A stretch of DNA of 38,444 nucleotides from Nitrospiria bacterium (GTDB lineage: Bacteria > Nitrospirota > Nitrospiria > JACQBZ01). The notes below the pieces were generated by a model. It ran no database searches, was not told the DNA's origin, and saw only the letters and a list, made by a program, of their open reading frames with translations. The position numbers and the translations under genes were made by a program. Below are positions 11,140-38,444 of this stretch, one piece after another. Within the stretch, counting starts at the first letter, position 1, and each line of letters opens with the position of its first letter. The stretch is taken from contig DATKAN010000031.1 of the NCBI GenBank assembly GCA_035498035.1, positions 1 through 38,444 on the forward strand. The letters run 5' to 3'.

Positions 11140-12387
11140 TCAGTCCCGGGCTTCCAGTTTTACAATCCCAAGGGCTTTCAAGACTGCCTTTTCATAATAC
11201 GGTTCGCTCACCCCGCGCTTCATCTTGTGAAGAAAATATTTCTCCAGGGCGATCTTGGCCAGGTGGACCCACTTCCCCTTTTTGGCCCACGTCACGTTTC
11301 GGGGCGCCATTTGCGGCAGCGCCACAAAGGCGATGCCGGTGTCGCCCATATCGGCCAGACAGATCGCGTTCAATGTGGCGGTTTCCCGCTTCGGGTTGTT
11401 TTCGATGTCGGCCTTGATGTTGTGGACCGCGGCCGAGACCATCGACTCGATCATGTAACCCGTCTTGGGCGCTCCGGTCGGAACCGGAGTCGGCTCCACC
11501 GGAGGGATGGCGACGCAAACCCCTACGGCGTAAATATTCCGATACCGGGGATTGGCCTGGTAGGCGTCGATATTCACAAAGCCTTTGGGATTGCAGAGGC
11601 CGGCGGTCTCCGCAACGGCGCTCACCCCGAGAAACGGGGGGATGAACATCGCATATTGAAATACGATTTCCTGGCCGTCCTCCAATACCAGCTTACCCGG
11701 CTGGACCTCCTTGATCGAGGCGTTCGTAACGGTCTTGATGGAGTGCTCGGCGAATTCATCCTCCATCAATCGTCGGGACTTTCCTACGCCGGCCAATCCC
11801 ATATGCCCGGCATAGGGTTCCGGCGTGACGAAATAGATCGGGACTTTCCGTCGAAGCCGCCGCTTTCGAAGGTCGGCATCCAGGATAAAGGCCATCTCAT
11901 ACGCCGGGCCGAAACAGGAAGCCCCCTGCGCCGCGCCGACCACCACCGGACCGGGATTCTTCAAAAAGGCCTGATAGGCTCCCCAGGCTTGCTCCGCGTG
12001 CTCCACCGTGCAGACCGACTGAGTATACCCGCTCGGGCCCAATCCCGAGACGGCCGCGAAATTCAGTTTCGGCCCCGTCGCAATGATCAAAAAGTCATAA
12101 GGAACCTCCCCTTGAGCGGTGAGGATGCGATTCCGCTCCGGGTCGATCCGCTCGGCCGCCGAGTGAATGAACGCGATCCCCCTCTTTTTAAGGACCGGGG
12201 CCAACGGAAAGGAGATATCCCCCCGTGAGCGTCTGCCGACCGCGACCCAGGGATTCGACGGGACGAAATGGAAAAAATCCACATTCGAAACCACGGTGAC
12301 GTTGTGTTTCCCACCCAGGAGCTTCCGGCATTCGTAGGCCGCCGGCAATCCGCCGATGGACGACCCGATGACCACGACGCGTGCCAT
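11140..12387 (-). CDS. sqr: Sulfide:quinone oxidoreductase
   Basis: A 415-residue FAD flavoprotein of the disulfide oxidoreductase family that oxidises sulfide and passes electrons to quinone at the membrane. The FAD motif VVVIGSSIGG opens the protein (4-13). Cysteines C126, C158 (in GASCFGPAYE) and C343 (in AICLADMGDTG) line up with the three redox cysteines (128, 160 and 356) of Acidithiobacillus ferrooxidans SQR. The C-terminal FVALPQMAPRNV and KGKWVHLAKIALEKYF, an amphipathic membrane-binding part, also match that type closely. Of two adjacent ATGs, 12387 is better spaced from GGAGA; 12390 is the alternative. It follows a cytochrome c gene by 46 bases, so sulfide electrons may also reach a cytochrome. 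Confidence 0.9.
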   Translation of the reverse strand: MARVVVIGSSIGGLPAAYECRKLLGGKHNVTVVSNVDFFHFVPSNPWVAVGRRSRGDISFPLAPVLKKRGIAFIHSAAERIDPERNRILTAQGEVPYDFLIIATGPKLNFAAVSGLGPSGYTQSVCTVEHAEQAWGAYQAFLKNPGPVVVGAAQGASCFGPAYEMAFILDADLRKRRLRRKVPIYFVTPEPYAGHMGLAGVGKSRRLMEDEFAEHSIKTVTNASIKEVQPGKLVLEDGQEIVFQYAMFIPPFLGVSAVAETAGLCNPKGFVNIDAYQANPRYRNIYAVGVCVAIPPVEPTPVPTGAPKTGYMIESMVSAAVHNIKADIENNPKRETATLNAICLADMGDTGIAFVALPQMAPRNVTWAKKGKWVHLAKIALEKYFLHKMKRGVSEPYYEKAVLKALGIVKLEARD

Positions 12388-21062: not shown

Positions 21063-21199
21063 GGCTTGTGCCGCCTTGGTGACCTACCCCGCGAGCCAGG
21101 TGAGCGAGAGGGGGAGGCCTTCGGCGAGCTCAGTCGAGCCGCTTAGCCGGCCGGCACCCGGCGGTTTGCAGCCGATGTGTGGAGGGGGCGACGCGAGCC
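21063..21199 (+). repeat. Dispersed intergenic repeat, copy A
   Basis: Copy A of a family seen four times in this window. The core (21091-21143) starts with GCGAGCCAGG, passes through AGCGAGAGGGGGAGG and ends in a 25-base block (21119-21143) identical to 36842-36866. The right end is GGGGGCGACGCGAGCC. The left end GGCTTGTGCCGCC resembles the inverse of that, giving imperfect terminal inverted repeats. The middle (21144-21180) is unlike the other copies. It lies between the scpB stop and the mtnB start. Confidence 0.75.
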
Positions 21200-24581: not shown

Positions 24582-24793
24582 TTTTTCTTGAACCTCGGTT
24601 TGGCGATCACCTGAAGATTTCCGAACTCCTCGACCTCGAACGGCACGCCCTGGGCCGTCAGCGCCTTTTTCGTTTCTTCAAGGTCCCGCGGATTACCGTA
24701 GGCCAGCAGCAGTCGCCCGCAACCGTCACAGGTGGCGACGTCCCGCCGTTTTTTGATGTATCGTTTCATGGATTGCAGGCAGCAGGGATTCAT
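24578..24793 (-). CDS. 71-residue protein with two Cys pairs, unknown
   Basis: A small basic protein with C4, C5 and C22, C25 (ATCDGCGRLLLAYG), which could bind a metal or form redox disulfides. The rest alternates basic helices and a short DUF-like alpha/beta part (ETKKALTAQGVPFEVEEFGNLQVIAKPRF) that could be an FlgN-like or ferredoxin-like half-fold, though I cannot name it. No signal peptide is seen. It is coupled by ATGA to the downstream membrane protein. AAAGGCGG lies about six bases before the ATG. It is probably real because its overlap and codon use fit the neighbours. Confidence 0.65.
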   Translation of the reverse strand: MNPCCLQSMKRYIKKRRDVATCDGCGRLLLAYGNPRDLEETKKALTAQGVPFEVEEFGNLQVIAKPRFKKK

Positions 24794-24941
24794 CGGACCG
24801 CCTTTCGATTAACGATCCTTCGCAGAAGCGGGCGGCCGAGGTGGGGCGCCCGGACGAGCGCAGGCGGGGTCCCAACACCGGGCGGGGTGCCGGGGACGGC
24901 TGGGCTCACCGGGGACAGGACCCGCTCAGATCGCGTCCTTT

Positions 24942-25739
24942 TCATTTCCGTTTTGGTTTTTCGGATGGAACCGTTTTTTGCTCCCAGAGCCTGTTTTTTA
25001 TGATGTACCCGCCCGCGACGAGAATCATTAGCGCGCTCGCCACGTGCGGGGCTCGAAAGGGTCCGAGATACAGGTCGTCGGCGCGGAAGAGGGTCACGAT
25101 GGAACGGACCACCGAATAGCAGATCAGATAGAGACAGAAGATAAAACCGTCGCCCCAGGGCCGCTTCCGGATGGACCAGAGAAAAGCGAAGGTCGCCACG
25201 TTCAGCACCAGCTCGTACAGCATGGTCGGATGAAGCGGCACCGCACCGAACTGTTGCCCGGCGATGCTCCCCGGCGGAAAGACGATGCCCCACGGCATCG
25301 TGGTCGGCGTGCCGTGCGCGTCGCCGTTCATAAAATTCCCGATTCGCCCGAAGGCCTGGCCCAGGACGATGCTGGGCGCTCCGGCATCGGCCAGCGGCCA
25401 GAACGGGACCCCGTGACGACGAACGAACCAGATCCCGACCAGCACCCCGCCGATGAGTCCGCCGTGGATGGCGAGCCCGCCGTGCCAGATGGCGGGTATC
25501 TCCGAAGGGTTTTGGCCGTAGTAGGACCAGTTGAACGCGACGTAATAGATCCGTGCGCCCAGGATCCCGCCCAGAAGACAGTACATGATCAGGTTCCAGC
25601 TGTCGTCGCTCGACAGCGGGATCCCCTTCCGGCGGACCTCTTTGGCCAACAGCCACCCTCCGACCATCGCCGCGATGAAATACATCAGCCCGTAATAGCG
25701 GATCGTGACGGGACCGAACTGGATTAGAATCGGATGCAT
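24942..25739 (-). CDS. lgt: Prolipoprotein diacylglyceryl transferase
   Basis: A 265-residue inner-membrane enzyme that transfers diacylglyceryl from phosphatidylglycerol to the lipobox cysteine of prolipoproteins. Seven membrane segments and the signature HGGLIGG (about 90-96) and GRIGNFMNGDAHG are present, with the arginine and the asparagine of the catalytic loop. The glutamate common after NG is an aspartate here (NGD), which occurs in other members. It starts eight bases after the trpS stop. The 148 bases after its stop are GC-rich and hold short direct repeats. Confidence 0.95.
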   Translation of the reverse strand: MHPILIQFGPVTIRYYGLMYFIAAMVGGWLLAKEVRRKGIPLSSDDSWNLIMYCLLGGILGARIYYVAFNWSYYGQNPSEIPAIWHGGLAIHGGLIGGVLVGIWFVRRHGVPFWPLADAGAPSIVLGQAFGRIGNFMNGDAHGTPTTMPWGIVFPPGSIAGQQFGAVPLHPTMLYELVLNVATFAFLWSIRKRPWGDGFIFCLYLICYSVVRSIVTLFRADDLYLGPFRAPHVASALMILVAGGYIIKNRLWEQKTVPSEKPKRK

Positions 25740-25747
25740 AGAATTGT

Positions 25748-26737
25748 CTAAATTCCCATCGCCTCCCGAACATCCTCGAGGGTCTGCCGGGCGACCTTTC
25801 CGGCCTTCTTCGAGCCCTCGGACACGACCGTTTCAACCTTCTTGGGATGCTTTACCCACTTCTCCCGCTCCCTCCAGATCGGCTCGAGCCGGTGCACCAT
25901 CCGGTCGGCCACCAGCTTCTTGCAGTCGATGCAGCCGATGGCGGCCGTCCGGCATTCCGAATTGACCCGGTCGACGACGCCGATCTCGGAGTAGATTTTA
26001 TGATAGGAGAAAACGGGACAGACATCCGGATTGCCGGGATCGGTCCGCCGGACCCGGGCCGGATCGGTCACCATCGTCCGGAGTTTCTCGCGCACGACCG
26101 GTTCGGGATCGGAGAGATAGATCGCGTTGTTGTAGCTCTTGCTCATTTTCCGCCCGTCGGTTCCCAGGAGCTTCGGCACCTCCGTGAGCAGGGGTTGCGG
26201 CTCGGGAAAGACGGTTTTGTAGAGATTGTTGAACCGTCGCGCCAGCTCGCGCGTCAACTCGAGATGCGGAAGCTGATCCACCCCCACCGGCACCACATCG
26301 GCCTTGTAAATCAGGATATCGGCCGACTGAAGAACGGGATATCCCAGAAAACCGTATGTCGTCAGATCCCGCTCGCGAAGTTCCTCGATCTTCTCCTTGT
26401 AGGTGGGGGTCCGCTCCAGCCAGGGCACCGGCGTGATCATCGAAAGGAGCAGGTGCAGCACGGCATGCTCCGGGAGGCGGGACTGGATGAAGACCGTGCA
26501 TTTCTCGGGGTCGATCCCGGCCGAAAGCCAGTCGATCAGCATCTCCTGGACGTACTCCCGAATCTTCCCGGTATCGGCGTAATTCGTCGACAGGGCGTGC
26601 CAGTCGGCCACAAAAAAATAGGCGTCGTACTCCTTCTGGTATTTGATCCAATTGTCCAGCGCCCCCAGCCAATTTCCCAGATGCAAACGCCCGCTGGGTT
26701 GCATCCCGCTCAACATGCGCTTCCTATGCGATTTCAC
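25748..26737 (-). CDS. trpS: Tryptophanyl-tRNA synthetase with a four-cysteine cluster
   Basis: A 329-residue class I aminoacyl-tRNA synthetase. The HIGH-like motif is PSGRLHLGN (14-22) and the KMSKS loop is at 197-201. The C-terminal domain contains C240, C262, C269 and C272, spaced C-x21-C-x6-C-x2-C. This is close to the C-x22-C-x6-C-x2-C motif that holds a [4Fe-4S] cluster near the tRNA anticodon in Thermotoga maritima TrpRS. The start is GTG 26737 with GGAGG about ten bases before it. It lies in an operon with a site-2 protease (27 bases upstream) and lgt. Iron-sulfur binding is inference. Confidence 0.95.
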   Translation of the reverse strand: MKSHRKRMLSGMQPSGRLHLGNWLGALDNWIKYQKEYDAYFFVADWHALSTNYADTGKIREYVQEMLIDWLSAGIDPEKCTVFIQSRLPEHAVLHLLLSMITPVPWLERTPTYKEKIEELRERDLTTYGFLGYPVLQSADILIYKADVVPVGVDQLPHLELTRELARRFNNLYKTVFPEPQPLLTEVPKLLGTDGRKMSKSYNNAIYLSDPEPVVREKLRTMVTDPARVRRTDPGNPDVCPVFSYHKIYSEIGVVDRVNSECRTAAIGCIDCKKLVADRMVHRLEPIWREREKWVKHPKKVETVVSEGSKKAGKVARQTLEDVREAMGI

Positions 26738-27490: not shown

Positions 27491-27502
27491 TATTATAAGA
27501 GG

Positions 27503-27593
27503 GGCTTACGTCGCCCCCTCCGCTGGCAGAGTCCGTCGGAGCGATTCGACTGAACTCGTCGAAGTCCTCCCCCTCTCGCTCGCCGGGCTCGCT
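27503..27593 (-). repeat. Dispersed intergenic repeat, copy B
   Basis: Copy B of the family, on the minus strand. Read in minus direction, the block 27593-27541 matches copy A at about 45 of 52 positions. The end GGAGGGGGCGACGTAAGCC (27521-27503) matches copy A at 17 of 19. Only about 20 bases separate core and end, so it is the shortest copy. It ends 12 bases before the start of the site-2 protease gene. Confidence 0.75.
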
Positions 27594-27648
27594 GGACCGA
27601 TTCCCGCAGACGCTAAATACCCGAGAGGAGACCGCAGCGTACCGTCTC

Positions 27649-30896: not shown

Positions 30897-31784
30897 ATGC
30901 ACGAACGGATTCAACAATTCCTGCAGTACCTGACAGTCGAGAAGGGTCTCTCTTCGAACACGATCGAATCCTACGGCGCCGATCTGAAACGGTACTCGGA
31001 ATTCCTAAAGGCCCGAGCGTCGAACCGCCTGGAAGACGTCACCCGCCGGGACCTTCTTGATTTTCTGGCCGCCCGAAAACAAAACGGCCTCTCCTCCCGC
31101 TCCCTCTCGCGACAGATCGCGACCCTTCGCAATTTTTACCGTTTTCTCAATCAGGAAAAAATACTCCAGACGGATCCCACTCAGAACATCGAATCGCCCC
31201 GCGACTGGAGGCGATTGCCGAAGACGATGGCCTTGGAGGAGGTGGAACGCCTGCTCAATCTTCCCAAGGGACCCACGCCCTCGGCGGTGCGGGACGATGC
31301 CCTGATCGAGTTGATATACGCCACCGGACTGCGCGTCTCGGAACTCACGACCTTGCCGCTGCAGGCCGTTAATACCGATGTAGGATACGTCCTGGCGACC
31401 GGCAAGGGCGGCAAGCAACGGATCATCCCGATGGGCGCCATGGCGCTTCAAAAGCTCAAGACGTATCTGGAAACCGCCCGGGCCCGACTGGCCAAGGGGC
31501 GGGGTTCCGACCGGGTCTTCCTCAACCGGTCCGGAGACGGCCTGACGCGGCAGGGCTGCTGGAAGCTGTTGAAGCATTACGTCCGACGGGCCGGCATCAA
31601 GCGCTCCGTCTCACCCCACATGTTGCGGCACTCCTTCGCGACGCATCTCCTGGAACGGGGCGCCGACCTGCGTTCGGTCCAGGCCATGCTGGGTCACGCC
31701 GACCTTTCCACCACCCAGATCTACACGGAGGTGACCCGTCATCGCCTGAAACAGATCCATCGGCAACTCCATCCGAGGGGGTGA
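30897..31784 (+). CDS. xerD: Tyrosine recombinase XerD (XerC/XerD type)
   Basis: A 295-residue site-specific recombinase that resolves chromosome dimers at dif. Catalytic residues are R146 (GLRVSEL), K170 (GKGGKQR), H241 and R244 (HMLRHSF), H267 (LGHADLS) and the nucleophile Y276 (TTQIYTEV). The N-terminal core-binding SAM-like domain (about 1-88) is normal. Length and motifs fit XerD/XerC; the two cannot be separated safely without comparison, and a XerH-like or XerA-like system is also possible. It starts two bases after ilvA without a Shine-Dalgarno and so probably depends on it. It is not next to phage or integron genes. Confidence 0.93.
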   Translation: MHERIQQFLQYLTVEKGLSSNTIESYGADLKRYSEFLKARASNRLEDVTRRDLLDFLAARKQNGLSSRSLSRQIATLRNFYRFLNQEKILQTDPTQNIESPRDWRRLPKTMALEEVERLLNLPKGPTPSAVRDDALIELIYATGLRVSELTTLPLQAVNTDVGYVLATGKGGKQRIIPMGAMALQKLKTYLETARARLAKGRGSDRVFLNRSGDGLTRQGCWKLLKHYVRRAGIKRSVSPHMLRHSFATHLLERGADLRSVQAMLGHADLSTTQIYTEVTRHRLKQIHRQLHPRG

Positions 31785-31796
31785 TGCTGTCCCAGG

Positions 31797-31977
31797 GGCT
31801 TGCGTCGCCGCCATTATCCGTGGGGGCCCGTGCGGGCTTCGCTCCTCCGATGCCCCCACACCCCGCGCTCGGACGGGCACAGCCCGATCCTCGCTTCCTC
31901 CACCGGCCATAGCCGGGTGGAGCTTCCCCCTCTCGCTCGCCTTGCTCGCCGGTTAAATTCAACTGGCGGCGCGAGTC
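31797..31977 (-). repeat. Dispersed intergenic repeat, copy C
   Basis: Copy C of the family, on the minus strand between xerD and a cyclophilin gene, both ends of which it nearly touches. Read in minus direction it has AGCGAGAGGGGGAAGC in the core but lacks the 25-base block. Terminal inverted repeats are visible: GGCTTGCGTCGCCGCC at 31797-31812 and GGCGGCGCGAGTC at 31965-31977 (plus strand). It carries a hairpin with an eight-base stem GTGGGGGC/GCCCCCAC and a CGGGC-TGT-GCCCG hairpin. Its length is 181 bases. Confidence 0.75.
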
Positions 31978-31985
31978 ACGGATAC

Positions 31986-32513
31986 CTACTTGACGGTCAC
32001 CTTTTTCATGACGTCCCCCCGCTGGATCTTCTGGATGACGTCGAGACTGGCCTTGTCGGTCACCTGTCCGAAGACCGTGTACTTGCCGTCCAGGAAGGGC
32101 TGCGGACCGAGACAGATGTAGAACTGGCTGTCGGCGCTGTCCGGATCACTCGCACGGGCCATGGCGACCGTGCCGAGGAGATGCGGCTTCTTGTTGAACT
32201 CGGCCTTGAGCTTGACTCCCGATCCCCCCGTTCCATTTCCGTTGGGATCCCCGCCCTGAATCACGAAGCCGGGCTCGACCCGGTGAAAGGTCAGCCCGTT
32301 ATAAAAACCCTGTTTGATCAACTCCGTGATTCGCGCCACGGTTTTGGGCGCCACATCCGGATACATTTCGAAGAGGATATTTCCCTTGTCCGTTTCAATG
32401 GTCACCACAGGTCTACCTCCTTGGGCCCAGGTCGTTTCAAAGACAAGCCCCAGACCGCCCGCGCTAAGGGTTAGTGTTCCTACAACAATCGCCAGAATCC
32501 AGTTCCGCTTCAT
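31986..32513 (-). CDS. Secreted peptidyl-prolyl cis-trans isomerase (cyclophilin type)
   Basis: A 175-residue cyclophilin that isomerises proline peptide bonds. Residues 1-31 are a Sec signal peptide (ending near TTWAQG), so it acts in the periplasm. The catalytic FHRVEPGFVIQGGDP is at about 76-90, and SADSQFYICLGPQPFLDGKYTVFGQV is the second conserved block. The overall length is typical for PpiA-type periplasmic cyclophilins. It lies nine bases from repeat copy C. It is separated by 23 bases from the Ppx/GppA gene and may be co-transcribed with it. Confidence 0.92.
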   Translation of the reverse strand: MKRNWILAIVVGTLTLSAGGLGLVFETTWAQGGRPVVTIETDKGNILFEMYPDVAPKTVARITELIKQGFYNGLTFHRVEPGFVIQGGDPNGNGTGGSGVKLKAEFNKKPHLLGTVAMARASDPDSADSQFYICLGPQPFLDGKYTVFGQVTDKASLDVIQKIQRGDVMKKVTVK

Positions 32514-33939: not shown

Positions 33940-36399
33940 TCAGCTGACCGTAAACAGCTCCAGCTTCCCCTTCCACTTCCTCGCCAGCGCGGCCTTCAAC
34001 GCGGCATGTTCGGGCCGGGTCAATTGCGGATCCCTCGAAAGCATTTTCCAGGCCTCTTCGCGCGCCGCTTCCAGCAACTTTGCGTCCCGGAGAATATTGG
34101 CGACCCGAAGTTCGGGCAGGCCGGACTGGCGCGTCCCGAAAAATTCGCCGGGACCCCGGATGGCCAGATCCTCCTCGGCGATCACAAAGCCGTCGTGGCT
34201 CCGGACCATGGTGTTCAGGCGACGCCGGCCCTCCTCCGAAACCCGTGCGGCGGCCAGGAGGAGGCAATAGGACCGGTGACGCCCCCGGCCCACCCGGCCG
34301 CGAAGTTGATGGAGTTGCGACAGGCCGAACCGCTCGGCGTGCTCGATGACCATCACCGTTGCATTGGGAACATCGATCCCGACCTCGATCACGGTCGTGG
34401 CCACCAATATTTGAATCCGTCCATTCTTGAAGGCCTCCATGACCCTTTCCTTCTCATCCATCCGCATCCGTCCGTGAAGCAAACCGACCGTCATGGAAGG
34501 AAACACCTCGCGCTGCAAATGGTCCGCCATTTGAGTGGCCGCTTTAAGATCCGTCTTTTCCGATTCCTCCACGATCGGGTAAACCACGTAGGCCTGACGC
34601 CCTTGCGCCACCTGCTCGGCCACAAGGGCATAAGCCTGGGAACGTTTCGATTCATAGCAGAGACGGGTCTCGATCGGGGCCCGTCCTTGGGGCAGCTCGT
34701 CGATCACCGAAAGATCCAAATCCCCGTGAACGGTCAAGGCCAAGGTCCGTGGAATGGGCGTGGCGGTCATGATGAGGACATCGGGATGGTATCCCTTTTC
34801 CCGCAGCAAGGCGCGCTGCATCACGCCGAACTTGTGCTGCTCGTCCACGACCACGAGGCCCAGACGGCCGAAGCGCACCTCCCCCTGGATCAATGCATGC
34901 GTTCCCACGACGAAGGCCGGCTCGTCGGAGGCCGCGAATCTCAGGGCCTTCGCCGATTCTCCTTTGGATTGACCGCCGGTCAGAAGAAGGCAGGGTCGTT
35001 TGAAGGGCGCGAACCAACGCTTGAGGGAAAGGTAATGTTGTTCCGCAAGGATCTCGGTGGGTACCATGAGAACCGCCTGATAGCCGTTGTCAACCGCGAT
35101 CACCATCGCGGCCAATGCGACAACCGTTTTTCCGCATCCGACGTCCCCCTGAAGAAGACGATTCATCGGATGCGGACGGGCCATGTCCCGCTTGATTTCT
35201 CCCAGCACGGCCGACTGGGCCGACGTGAGTCGATACGGGAGCCCCTCAAGAAACCGCCTCAGATACGGGCCCTCCGTATCAAAGGCCGTTCCCCGGGGTT
35301 CCTCCGCCGTCTCCCGCCGTTTCAAGCCCAGGCCGAGTTGGAGAAGAAATAATTCATCAAACGCCAGCCGGCGGTGGGCGTCGCTGCGACCCTGATTCAA
35401 CACCTCCAGAGAAGTTCCCGCAGACGGGAAATGGGCACGGGGCAAGGCCTCCGATAACGGGATGAGGTGATGGGCCTTGAGAACCGACTGCGGGAGCATT
35501 TCGCGGAGCCCCGGCGCATACTCTTCCAGGATCGTCTTCATGAGCGACCGGACCGGACGGCTGGTCAATCCATGCGTCTCATGATAGATCGGAACAATCC
35601 GGCCGCTGTGCAAACCGACCGCGGGGGTCTCGTCGTCCAAAAACTCGTAAACCGGGTTTTCAATTTCAAGGCCCCGGCCCCGGCGGGGATTTACCGCCAC
35701 CCTTCCGAAAAGCATGAGCCTCTGCCCCGTCTTGAACCGCTTTTGCAAATAGGGCTGATTGAACCATTTGACGAGGATGGAGCCGCTTTCATCCCCCAGC
35801 AGCATTTCAATGATTTTAAACCCGCGACGGGATGTGATCGTCAGATGGGTCGATTGAACCACCCCGCAGACGGTCTGCTCTTCACCGGGAATTACCTGGG
35901 CGATGGATTTGAGACGGCTGCGGTCCTCATACCGCCAGGGCAGGTAGTAAAGGAAATCCTCCAGGGTCTTGATTCCCAACCGGGCCAGCCATTCGGCCCG
36001 TTTTGGACCCACTCCTTTAAGGTATTGAATCGGACGGTCCCATAGAACGGCATCCGGAGGCAGGCCGGAGGGATCCGGAACCCGGGGCGGGTCCGGCCCA
36101 ATACAAGCCGTGCCGCTCTGGGAGAGGATCTCCAAAAGCTCCTGAGCCCTTCGCAAACGGTCCCGCCGCGCCCCTTCGATAAGTTGGTCGTAATCGGTAA
36201 AAAGATCCTTCAGGCGCGCCCAGTCCCGCGCGGTCTCTTCGGAAAGGGTCTGCGCGAGGGCCGCCTGGACCTGTTGCGTCACAAACCCGGCCAATCCCTG
36301 GATCTTCATGAGATGGGCGAAGTTCTTTTGAACGGCGTATCGGATCGGTTTCTGAATACGGTCGAGGATGGCCTCCAGCGTTTCCGCTTTGCTCATCAT
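33940..36399 (-). CDS. recG: ATP-dependent DNA helicase RecG
   Basis: An 819-residue helicase that remodels stalled replication forks and Holliday junctions. The wedge/OB region lies at about 190-290. Superfamily 2 motifs follow: GDVGCGKTVVA (Walker A), VVVDEQHKFGV (DExH), TATPIPRTLAL, and the C-terminal QLRGRVGRG. The protein is about 120 residues longer than E. coli RecG; the extra part is an N-terminal helical extension (about 1-120), as in other non-proteobacterial RecG. The ATG at 36399 is chosen; the frame also offers TTG at 36405 and ATG at 36396. It is followed by a GC-rich spacer before the coiled-coil gene. Confidence 0.95.
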   Translation of the reverse strand: MMSKAETLEAILDRIQKPIRYAVQKNFAHLMKIQGLAGFVTQQVQAALAQTLSEETARDWARLKDLFTDYDQLIEGARRDRLRRAQELLEILSQSGTACIGPDPPRVPDPSGLPPDAVLWDRPIQYLKGVGPKRAEWLARLGIKTLEDFLYYLPWRYEDRSRLKSIAQVIPGEEQTVCGVVQSTHLTITSRRGFKIIEMLLGDESGSILVKWFNQPYLQKRFKTGQRLMLFGRVAVNPRRGRGLEIENPVYEFLDDETPAVGLHSGRIVPIYHETHGLTSRPVRSLMKTILEEYAPGLREMLPQSVLKAHHLIPLSEALPRAHFPSAGTSLEVLNQGRSDAHRRLAFDELFLLQLGLGLKRRETAEEPRGTAFDTEGPYLRRFLEGLPYRLTSAQSAVLGEIKRDMARPHPMNRLLQGDVGCGKTVVALAAMVIAVDNGYQAVLMVPTEILAEQHYLSLKRWFAPFKRPCLLLTGGQSKGESAKALRFAASDEPAFVVGTHALIQGEVRFGRLGLVVVDEQHKFGVMQRALLREKGYHPDVLIMTATPIPRTLALTVHGDLDLSVIDELPQGRAPIETRLCYESKRSQAYALVAEQVAQGRQAYVVYPIVEESEKTDLKAATQMADHLQREVFPSMTVGLLHGRMRMDEKERVMEAFKNGRIQILVATTVIEVGIDVPNATVMVIEHAERFGLSQLHQLRGRVGRGRHRSYCLLLAAARVSEEGRRRLNTMVRSHDGFVIAEEDLAIRGPGEFFGTRQSGLPELRVANILRDAKLLEAAREEAWKMLSRDPQLTRPEHAALKAALARKWKGKLELFTVS

Positions 36400-36466
36400 A
36401 GGCAAGAGGGTCGGGGTTTGGTAAGACGCGTTGTGTTGCGCCTCGGGAGAATTTGGAGAATAATTC

Positions 36467-36495
36467 TTGTCACGCGACGGACGTTATGTTAACAT
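36467..36495 (+). promoter_or_regulatory. Sigma-70 promoter for rpmB with a palindrome over the -10 box
   Basis: TTGTCA (36467-36472) and TAACAT (36490-36495) are separated by 17 bases. A perfect 12-base palindrome TATGTTAACATA (36485-36496) covers the -10 box, so a dimeric repressor could block it. The start is expected near 36502, which gives a leader of about 76 bases. Confidence 0.6.
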
Positions 36496-36577
36496 AGTCA
36501 ATTGGTTTCTGCAACACCGACAATGGGTTTTGCAAGGGCGATGATCATGAATAAGAATAACGAAAAGGAGACCGTCC

Positions 36578-36769
36578 GTGGCCTACGTTTGTGCAATCTG
36601 CGGCAAGGGAAAGACCGTCGGTTTTAAGGTCAGTCATGCCCATAACAAGACGAAGCACCCCTTTTACCCGAATTTGAAATCCGTCAAGGCGCTCGTGAAC
36701 CAGACAACCCGGCGGATCAAAGTCTGCACCCGTTGCATTCGTTCCGGGTGGGTGAAGAAAGCCGTCTGA
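36578..36769 (+). CDS. rpmB: 50S ribosomal protein L28 (zinc-binding form)
   Basis: A 63-residue L28 of the large ribosomal subunit. The zinc-binding form has two CxxC pairs, C5/C8 and C50/C53. [26 protein letters not shown] and RRIKVCTRC are typical of L28. The start is GTG at 36578 with AAAAGGAG six to seven bases upstream. Presence of the cysteines marks the C+ paralog class, which zinc-limited cells replace by a C- form; none is seen here. Repeat copy D follows. Confidence 0.96.
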
Positions 36770-36814
36770 AATTTGATTTCAACTGCCCGACGGGCGGCCG
36801 GGTGGAACGTCCCG

Positions 36815-36973
36815 GCCAGCCGCGCGGGCGGGAGGGGGATACTTCGGCGAGCTCAGTCGAGCCGCTCCGCCGTTGAAAGCGAGGAACGGGCTTAGCCCGT
36901 CCGAGTGCCGGGGGGCGCCGGAAGTGCGAAGCCCGAACGGGCCCCCGCATCGGGAAGGTGGCGACGCGAGTCC
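36815..36973 (+). repeat. Dispersed intergenic repeat, copy D
   Basis: Copy D of the family. It contains the 25-base block (36842-36866) identical to copy A, followed by a middle section similar to copy C: ACGGGC-TTA-GCCCGT hairpin (36886-36900), the GGGGGC/GCCCCC stem with a GCCCG-AA-CGGGC hairpin inside (36911-36945) and the end GGCGACGCGAGTCC. No inverted left end is visible. It ends nine bases before the corA ATG. Left of it, 36784-36814 is GC-rich and partly palindromic. Confidence 0.75.
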
Positions 36974-36982
36974 CTACAAACG

Positions 36983-37951
36983 ATGATCGAGATTTTTACC
37001 TACTCAAAACAAAACGGCCTAAGGAGGATCACGGATTCCGGGTCCTTACCCAGCCTGCTGAAGGACGAATCCGAGTCCGTCTGGGTCGATCTGGAGGCGC
37101 CGACCGAGGAAGAGACCCAGATTCTATCCTCCGTCTTTAATTTTCATCCCCTCGCCATCGAGGATTGCGTCGGGGAATCCCATCTTCCGAAACTGGACGA
37201 CTTCGGCGACTATTTATTTCTGGTGCTGCACGGCGCCCGGAGCGGCGAGGCGCCGGGAACGTTCAAAACGGTCGAGCTCAATTTCTTCCTGGGAAAGCGC
37301 TACCTGGTCTCCTATCACCAGCCCTTGTCCCGCAGCGTCAACCGCACGAAAGAACGGTGCCTGAAAAACTCCCTCACCATGTCACGGGGATTGGATTTCC
37401 TCCTTTACGAAATACTGGACGGCACCGTGGACAATTACTTCCCCATCCTGGATGATTTCGACGAAGTGCTCGACGAACTCGAGCGCGAGGTCACGGCGTC
37501 CCCCACCAAGGAAACCCTAAACCGGATATTCACGCTGAAACGGGACGGGATGGCCCTTCGGAGGGTCACCAGTCCGCAGCGAGAAATCCTCAACCGGCTG
37601 AGCCGCGACCCGTTCACGGTGGTCAACAAACGGACGGCCATCTATTTCCGCGATGTGTATGATCATCTCGTGCGGATCAACGACCTGGCGGAATCTTACA
37701 AAGACCTTACGACCGGACTCCTGGAGGCCTACATCTCCATGGTGTCCAACCGTTTGAACGAGGTCGTGAAAATTCTCACGGCGCTCACCGTCGTCTTCAT
37801 GCCCCTCACGGTCATCACCGGAATCTATGGAATGAACTTCAAGTACATGCCCGAATTGCAATGGCGCTACGGCTATTACATAACGATCGGGGCAATGCTT
37901 GGAATCGTTGTTGTGATGCTGTGGTTTTTCCGCAGGAAAAAGTGGATCTAG
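36983..37951 (+). CDS. corA: CorA family magnesium/cobalt transporter
   Basis: A 322-residue CorA-type ion channel of the inner membrane. The long cytoplasmic part with two charged helices is followed by two C-terminal membrane segments. The selectivity signature GMN is at 283-285 (YGMNFKYMPEL). Substrate is likely Mg2+, with Co2+ or Ni2+ possible. I start it at ATG 36983; the frame continues upstream into repeat copy D without similarity. No Shine-Dalgarno precedes the ATG. Its TAG stop shares bases with the stop of the convergent outer-membrane gene in a CTAG. Confidence 0.95.
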   Translation: MIEIFTYSKQNGLRRITDSGSLPSLLKDESESVWVDLEAPTEEETQILSSVFNFHPLAIEDCVGESHLPKLDDFGDYLFLVLHGARSGEAPGTFKTVELNFFLGKRYLVSYHQPLSRSVNRTKERCLKNSLTMSRGLDFLLYEILDGTVDNYFPILDDFDEVLDELEREVTASPTKETLNRIFTLKRDGMALRRVTSPQREILNRLSRDPFTVVNKRTAIYFRDVYDHLVRINDLAESYKDLTTGLLEAYISMVSNRLNEVVKILTALTVVFMPLTVITGIYGMNFKYMPELQWRYGYYITIGAMLGIVVVMLWFFRRKKWI

Positions 37952-38444
37952 AAAAGGTAACGGAAACCCGCCGATAATCCATAGTCCGGACTGGCCTGAG
38001 TCAATCCCATGCTCCACGACACGGTAAGCGCCTTGTTGGTGTCCAGATCGTACAGCAGGCCGACGAGGGCCGAGAGCGGGTCCGCCGATGTGTCGGCCGA
38101 AAGCCCGGAGGCCAGGCCCGATGACTTGGGGTACCGGTTGGACTGTCCCGCCAACTCGCCCACCACGTGAAGATTATCGGCCGTCGTCAAATAGTCAAAG
38201 GCCAGACTGTAGGTCAGGATGTCGTTCAAGCTGTTATTGGGTGGATTGCCGACAAAGAGGTACCCCAGGTTTAGATGAACCGTCACGGGGAAAAATTCCT
38301 TCGATGCGATCGCGCGAATCCCCACATCGGGCTCGCCCGTGCATTCCAGGGACAGGGCCTTGTCCTTGTTGCAACTCGGAAATTTCACGGACAATTGTCC
38401 GGCGATTGAAACCGGATTCGCTTCACGCCCCTTGATGAAACGAA
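37948..38444 (-). CDS. Outer-membrane beta-barrel protein, C-terminal part (cut by window edge)
   Basis: The reading frame is open to the right edge, so the N-terminus lies outside the window. At least 164 residues are present. Alternating hydrophobic strands (HLNLGYLFVGN, TYSLAFDYLTT, LHVVGELAGQ, ALTVSWSMGLT, YGLSAGFRYLF) fit an outer-membrane beta-barrel, and the C-terminal phenylalanine is the usual BAM insertion signal. I cannot name the family; porin-like or transport-related barrels are possible. A cysteine pair (SCNKDKALSLEC) lies in a loop. Its stop overlaps that of corA. Confidence 0.75.
   Translation of the reverse strand, partial: RFIKGREANPVSIAGQLSVKFPSCNKDKALSLECTGEPDVGIRAIASKEFFPVTVHLNLGYLFVGNPPNNSLNDILTYSLAFDYLTTADNLHVVGELAGQSNRYPKSSGLASGLSADTSADPLSALVGLLYDLDTNKALTVSWSMGLTQASPDYGLSAGFRYLF

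Follow-up and report, generated by a model that had tools for sequence, protein, structure and literature searches.

A short, hairpin-rich intergenic repeat, here called F, is present at positions 31797-31977 of the window (the whole stretch of 38,444 nucleotides that was analysed), and this copy of F, copy C, contains a second repeat inside it. The window corresponds to contig C31 of the assembly G000 (2.67 Mb, 67 contigs, 98.96% complete). Copy C lies between two genes that, on the basis of their translations, we take to be xerD-like (30897-31784, plus strand) and peptidyl-prolyl isomerase-like (31986-32513, minus strand). In the original prediction, this interval was described as a miniature transposable element (MITE) with terminal inverted repeats. 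The two quoted ends occur exactly as written, GGCTTGCGTCGCC at 31797-31809 on the plus strand and GGCGGCGCGAGTC at 31965-31977, and the analogous pair of copy A is also found: GGCTTGTGCCGCC occupies 21063-21075, and GGCGACGCGAGCC, which reads GGCTCGCGTCGCC when inverted, occupies 21187-21199. The 13-mer GRCTYGCGTCGCC is genuinely repeated in the genome, with 66+48 matches at no more than one mismatch as compared to 12+18 in the reversed-letter control. The parts of copy C, and the other copies of F in the window, are the following:

31794-31809, plus strand: left end and hairpin 1 of F in copy C, AGGGGCTTGCGTCGCC; the second arm is weakened, GCCGCC instead of GCCCCC
31810-31896, plus strand: module d in copy C, with arms GTGGGGGC...GCCCCCAC, then GGACGGGC-ACA-GCCCGATCC
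31898-31922, plus strand: hairpin 2 of F in copy C, CTCCACCGGC-CATA-GCCGGGTGGAG
31923-31952, plus strand: F tail of copy C, C-rich spacer and hairpin-3 region, CTTCCCCCTC TCGCTCGCCTTGCTCGCCGG; the arms are direct, not inverted
31953-31977, plus strand: 3' segment of copy C, containing GGCGGCGCGAGTC, the predicted right inverted repeat
27500-27595, plus strand: copy B; this F carries the palindrome module b at 27547-27565
21082-21199, minus strand: copy A; this F carries module c as well as module b, and a 3' inverted motif lies at 21063-21075
36806-36972, minus strand: copy D; this F carries module d as well as module b, and is a weak model match

Copy C has 44 matching places in G000 at E ≤ 0.001. 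A scan of this genome for the left end, with up to 3 mismatches, gave 110 heads, 82 of them accompanied by a tail, and about 85 copies with both head and tail were collected after more G000 sequence had been scanned (part of the genome; a few copies may have been called twice). The F host element is about 70-85 bp long. Its left hairpin is conserved (TTRTAGGGGCTYRCGTCGCCCCCTCC) and is followed by a second hairpin in the middle, by a spacer rich in C and, last, by hairpin 3. The arms of the middle hairpin vary and mostly remain complementary, and the third hairpin is missing from many copies. Canonical F reads TTRT-AGGGGCTYRCGTCGCCCCCTCC, the hairpin CTCCAccGGC-nAA-GCCggATGGAG, then CCTCCCCCTC and CGCTCGC-nTT-GCTCGCTGG. 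At the left boundary of 82 copies, T (0.90), T (0.68), A/G (0.76) and T (0.76) precede AGGGGCTYRCGTCGCC, and columns far upstream are conserved at about 0.3-0.4; the last 16 letters of this left end are conserved partly by construction, since the copies were picked by them at up to 3 mismatches. The letters before GGGC are ATAG in 25, GTAG in 14 and TTAG in 7 of 85 copies. The ends of F are asymmetric, with TTRT conserved ahead of the left one, which may be only suggestive with regard to Y1 cleavage 3' of a fixed target.

A covariance model was built from 50 copies, its structure covering hairpins 1 and 2 only. Its E values in the window were 4e-19 for copy B, 5e-17 for copy C, 2e-12 for copy A and, as a weak match, 5e-4 for copy D; a match as weak as that of D, at 11471-11523, apparently falls within coding sequence. 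The best match in copy C spans 31886-31958 and excludes the head, because about 87 bases, namely module d, separate hairpins 1 and 2. The structure alignment contained 50 copies picked for diversity among 93 distinct canonical ones. All five pairs of hairpin 1 are intact in 50/50 copies, with no variation, and each of the nine pairs of hairpin 2 is kept in 43 to 50 of the 50. Changes on both sides of a pair were observed at 4 of the 14 pairs of the two hairpins, all four in hairpin 2. As to hairpin 3, perfect arms of at least 5 bp are present in 27/117 copies as compared to 25/585 letter shuffles, with diverse arm sequences (GCCGC/GCGGC, GCTGC/GCAGC and GCGAC/GTCGC, for example); arms of even 3 bp are absent from 68/117 copies and hairpin 3 is not part of the predicted consensus.

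Module d was observed without F at three other G000 loci (L019, L021 and L024). Copy C is accordingly a composite in which one intergenic palindromic repeat, d, is nested inside another, F, the two being independent of each other. Inner parts of module d are also swappable at L019, where a long inner stretch is found, and at L021, and d may be a second element of the frame type. Module b, which was considered as a possible freely mobile repeat, gave 32 matches in G000, most of them in F copies and in one orientation (judged by eye and untallied). At L332, two b matches occur with a tail and without a clear head, and at L333, L334 and L335 the surroundings are not F-like; two of these (L333 and L335, on contig C64) have b inside another, non-F palindromic repeat. 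This suggests that b has its own target preference, by eye AGC^C. In the window we also observed a GC-rich dispersed repeat at 24821-24926, at the edge of the open reading frame 24790-25836 (minus strand), which is 92% identical to G000:C67:10031-10136 and occurs at several more places in G000.

A comparison by eye with the corresponding sites of relatives covered thirteen sites of F, located in the window and in two further syntenic stretches; the coding-sequence motif hits L283:1225, L283:9048 and L285:9992 were excluded. Copy C is missing from the xerD/isomerase junction of three relatives, in which the gap measures 41 (G001), 43 (G002) and 29 bases (G003), and G004 has a contig break there; a recent gain of copy C at this site is therefore likely. 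At L285:19311, F is present in G000 only, and four relatives are empty. Site D, between genes that are presumably rpmB-like and corA-like, is filled in G000 (modules d and b), G002 (plain F) and G004 (module c), with identical place and orientation, and is F-free in G001 and G003. Each of the sites L285:765, L285:3534, L285:4587 and L283:15843 is filled in two genomes, and two or three others lack F there, with a remnant in G001 at L285:3534 and two long F-free gaps (100 and 444 bases) at L283:15843. L283:2946 and L283:10698 have a single comparable relative each, which is F-free, and at L283:9898 G000 has only the head, whereas the copy of G001 is fuller. Less clear are site A, where a remnant resembling the head survives in G001 and G002, and site B, where the gap is filled by a different sequence in G002 and the other relatives have no F. 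In the G002 orthologue of the copy B site (L153) the gap is occupied by AAAGTTCCAGATGCGAGGCCGC..., and G000 retains the same flank, CCGCAGCGTAC.

The inner modules differ at five shared sites that have a tail in each copy (D and four others), and the frame is kept; a sixth shared site, L283:8033, has a damaged copy in G000. Between identical flanks at L285:4587, G000 has modules a+b and G001 has module e, which suggests replacement and not simple nesting. As shown by these site comparisons, the inner modules of F (b, c, d and e) apparently turn over faster than the frame. A second segment like that around copy D, which we take to comprise a recG start and rpmB-like and corA-like genes, was also observed: window positions 36175-38444 are 79-85% identical to the end of contig C22 (G000:C22:38489-40746), where F has the opposite orientation. 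The C22 segment is either a paralogous block or a sister-species contig in the bin.

In a search of 58 genomes, copy C gave matches at E ≤ 1e-5 in 20, a number that counts G000 itself and covers every one of the seven members of its family. At least 120 genomic stretches contain the exact 22-mer head. The hosts among the 80 titles listed include Nitrospirae groundwater MAGs, Candidatus Troglogloeales and Nitrospira sp. Bin_29_2_1, together with Syntrophus, Syntrophorhabdus, Syntrophorhabdaceae, Bdellovibrionales and other Deltaproteobacteria MAGs, and many of the stretches listed contain whole canonical F. Judging from these matches, F is common to more than one bacterial phylum; the hairpin arms are host-specific, which argues against simple mis-binning. 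When the model was run at E ≤ 1e-6 on a phylum sample of 198 genomes, under strict filters by which weak matches were lost, 10 genomes were positive, two with at least 23 matches and the rest with one to three. The distribution of F is thus patchy, as for mobile DNA. The exact head 21-mer was not found in viral contigs, the F consensus had no match in plasmids at E ≤ 1e-3, and the open-access papers searched contained neither the F head (in four 17-letter spellings) nor Troglogloeales together with repeats. The text of a 2013 survey of REP sequences (PMC3733652) names the deltaproteobacteria G. uraniireducens and D. alkenivorans, and F could resemble a family in its figures, which is where the family sequences appear.

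The ends of F were assessed by comparing genomic copies, as the original prediction proposed. The left boundary is sharp; the right one is fuzzy and is not a family terminus, no column past the F tail being conserved above 0.56 in 82 copies. The inverted head occurs within 90 bp past the tail in 2/84, 5/84 and 11/84 G000 copies at up to 1, 2 and 3 mismatches (84 of the 85 copies, one near an end being omitted), as compared to 0, 2 and 8 in the reversed-letter control and 0, 1 and 5 in the far-window control. In the named genomes, it was found 60-250 bp past the head in 3/116 and 4/116 cases at up to 1 and 2 mismatches, a count made without a control. The two ends of copy C are unlike each other, and the right one recurs in few copies. 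Copies elsewhere thus do not have both ends in common, the outcome that the original prediction named as its refutation, so that terminal inverted repeats, and with them the MITE, are ruled out as the definition of the family. It is highly improbable that F is a genuine MITE, bounded by terminal inverted repeats and moved by a DDE transposase, whose right repeat has decayed in most copies. It would account for the existence of the quoted ends and for the position of the inverted motif, which, where present in G000, is mostly offset by 24-25 bp from the tail (5/5 at up to 2 mismatches, 7/11 at up to 3); given this fixed offset, the motif could be what is left, after decay, of a more extended 3' segment. 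Against the MITE stand the low counts and the target sites, at which no clear duplication was seen by eye, the flanks of the nearest relatives being too diverged; a duplication of about 9 bp looked possible by eye at L285:19311 and not at other sites. Highly alike F+d composites also speak against it: they are sharp on the left side and have on the right only TGGGTAGATACCC-like letters before diverging, not an inverted head (14 rows, of which L187 and the first L359 row span two elements and four, L251, L266, L267 and L278, belong to stretches outside the titles listed). In G009, one F+d copy is 93-99% identical to 11 others over 123-175 bases, so this composite was amplified recently. That F copies spread and change chiefly through recombination with one another (gene conversion, based on homology or micro-homology), and not by transposition, is quite improbable too: the exchange of a+b for e between identical flanks at L285:4587 is what it would produce, but gain at short F-free gaps needs insertion, and closely similar elements across phyla need transfer as well as insertion.

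Another explanation concerns RNA. Among co-directional neighbours in G000, the F head points towards the downstream start codon in 45 cases and in the opposite direction in 16, the other contexts being 10 divergent, 9 convergent and 1 unassigned (81 of 82 copies; one lies too near an end). In the named genomes, which include some relatives of G000, the ratio is 47:9, with 15 divergent, 12 convergent and 17 of 100 unassigned. Genes were called with a simple longest-frame heuristic, and the binomial values (3e-4 for G000 and 3e-7 for the named genomes) ignore the clustering of gene direction. F is therefore mostly antisense to its co-directional neighbours, and this bias fits either insertion that is specific to a strand or the tolerance or use of F at the level of transcripts. 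It would be expected if F were kept mainly as RNA, with the strand opposite the written head being transcribed, its hairpins affecting mRNA stability or translation, and mobility being secondary. This is unlikely on balance. In its favour, the non-Watson-Crick cells of hairpin 2 comprise 23 wobble pairs on the complementary strand, 4 on the written strand and 15 other mismatches, a tally over 73 distinct hairpins that are not independent events. Fold z-scores for both strands of four copies ranged from -5.0 to +0.4: on the complementary strand two copies gave -3.1 and -2.5, but the other two (-1.2 and 0.4) folded no better than shuffles, and the best value, -5.0, belongs to the written strand of L192. 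Copy C itself gave -2.4 both as DNA (plus strand) and as RNA (minus strand). In Rfam 15 no match to the window reached the gathering score, and a canonical copy and copy C had no match at E ≤ 1. Furthermore, many orthologous sites are F-free, so those genes do not need F, and insertion specific to a replication strand could produce the same bias.

We give about an even chance to the reading that F is non-autonomous, resembles REPs and BIMEs (REP/BIME-like) and may be moved by a Y1 transposase of the REP-associated tyrosine type, with copy C as an F+d composite. Of the two classes originally put forward, REP is the closer fit and the MITE with terminal inverted repeats is not. The proposal of a mobile-like, dispersed, intergenic non-coding element, probably a recent arrival here, holds, and the bounds drawn for it were wrong. 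In this reading, F consists of an RTAG-like tag with a strongly conserved hairpin directly behind it and of two further hairpins with compensating arm changes, and it has been gained in intergenic gaps. It would spread as folded single-stranded DNA and be cleaved in trans by a Y1/HUH (REP-associated tyrosine) transposase, and the strand complementary to F would be tolerated or used within mRNAs.

The search for an autonomous partner covered Y1 genes. G000 has two Y1_Tnp genes, at +2.6 and -0.2 bits with respect to the NCBIfam cut-off for the REP-associated tyrosine transposase. The two, at L082 (contig C55) 2583-3455 and 5536-6396, encode tyrosine transposases of the REP type that closely resemble each other; the C-terminal part of each has a weak similarity to sigma-factor families, and the gene between them is presumably RHS-like. 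In 20 Y1 loci of G000-G004, G006 and G010 (flanks up to about 1.5 kb, shorter at contig ends) no F head or tail was found, a short-pattern scan giving a few scattered matches with the rest of F absent. In another set of 30 Y1 loci, some of them genes already included above, none is bordered by F; at L378 a clear copy of F is located about 1.1 kb away, and L364, L374, L381, L384 and L392 have single weak motif matches, again with the rest of F absent. The predicted REP-associated transposase with matching ends was thus not encountered among the Y1 genes examined. Y1_Tnp is present in 17 of 18 F-bearing genomes reached via named loci, five of which are relatives already counted (G002, G006, G009, G012 and G040), and does not track F among the 58 genomes (14/20 with copy-C matches vs. 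28/38 without). As the Y1 genes are not bordered by F, the link to REPs rests on the architecture, the RTAG-like tag and the likeness to Pseudomonas GI REP cores.

It is very doubtful, in our opinion, that F is instead a horizontally shared, structured and site-stable frame, with one and the same left hairpin across phyla, in which an enzyme dedicated to hairpin processing exchanges the palindromic modules inside, that is, a cassette-like mobile leader and not an ordinary REP. With the REP/BIME-like reading, the MITE label, which is probably wrong, is set right. The same 22-mer across phyla, together with module turnover at fixed sites, could make testable how REP-class repeats cross species, and likewise growth by nesting and interplay with host mRNAs.

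Palindrome-associated IS200/IS605 derivatives have asymmetric hairpin ends, a left-flank motif and no obvious target duplication. F resembles them in all three respects and differs in that no Y1 gene among the loci examined is bordered by it. BOX elements of Streptococcus pneumoniae are modular, with fixed outer parts and variable inner modules; F is likewise modular, with a fixed outer frame and variable inner modules, and differs in being present in several phyla. In REPIN doublets the REPs are arranged as an inverted pair, whereas in F only one such hairpin, the left one, is present and the hairpins after it are of other kinds. Like BIMEs and REPINs, F is a composite of palindromes and presumed non-autonomous; unlike them, it has one REP-like end, unlike inner hairpins and other repeats nested inside. 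The text of PMC3116915 presents REPINs as REP doublets and gives the Pseudomonas GI REP core as GGGGGCTTGCCCCC (+TCCC), which is close by eye to GGGGCTTGC[GTCG]CCCCCTCC of F. According to the text of PMC3733652, GTAG is found in more than 90% of the members of most GTAG REP families, some families being looser (the tag is also covered in the text of PMC8266576); the exact GTAG of F stays far from this share. As in these families, F has a hairpin beside the tag, is high-copy and is intergenic. A REPtron, with an F-flanked RAYT, was not found among the Y1 loci examined. F is like REPs in being short, intergenic and of high copy number, with a tag adjoining a hairpin and Y1 transposase genes in most hosts, and unlike them in its fixed series of three hairpins, its mostly ATAG, GTAG or TTAG tags, the lack of an F-bordered RAYT among the loci examined and an identical 22-mer that spans phyla. 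F departs from the GTAG families in its tag and in the REPtron, yet it works like a REP-class element.
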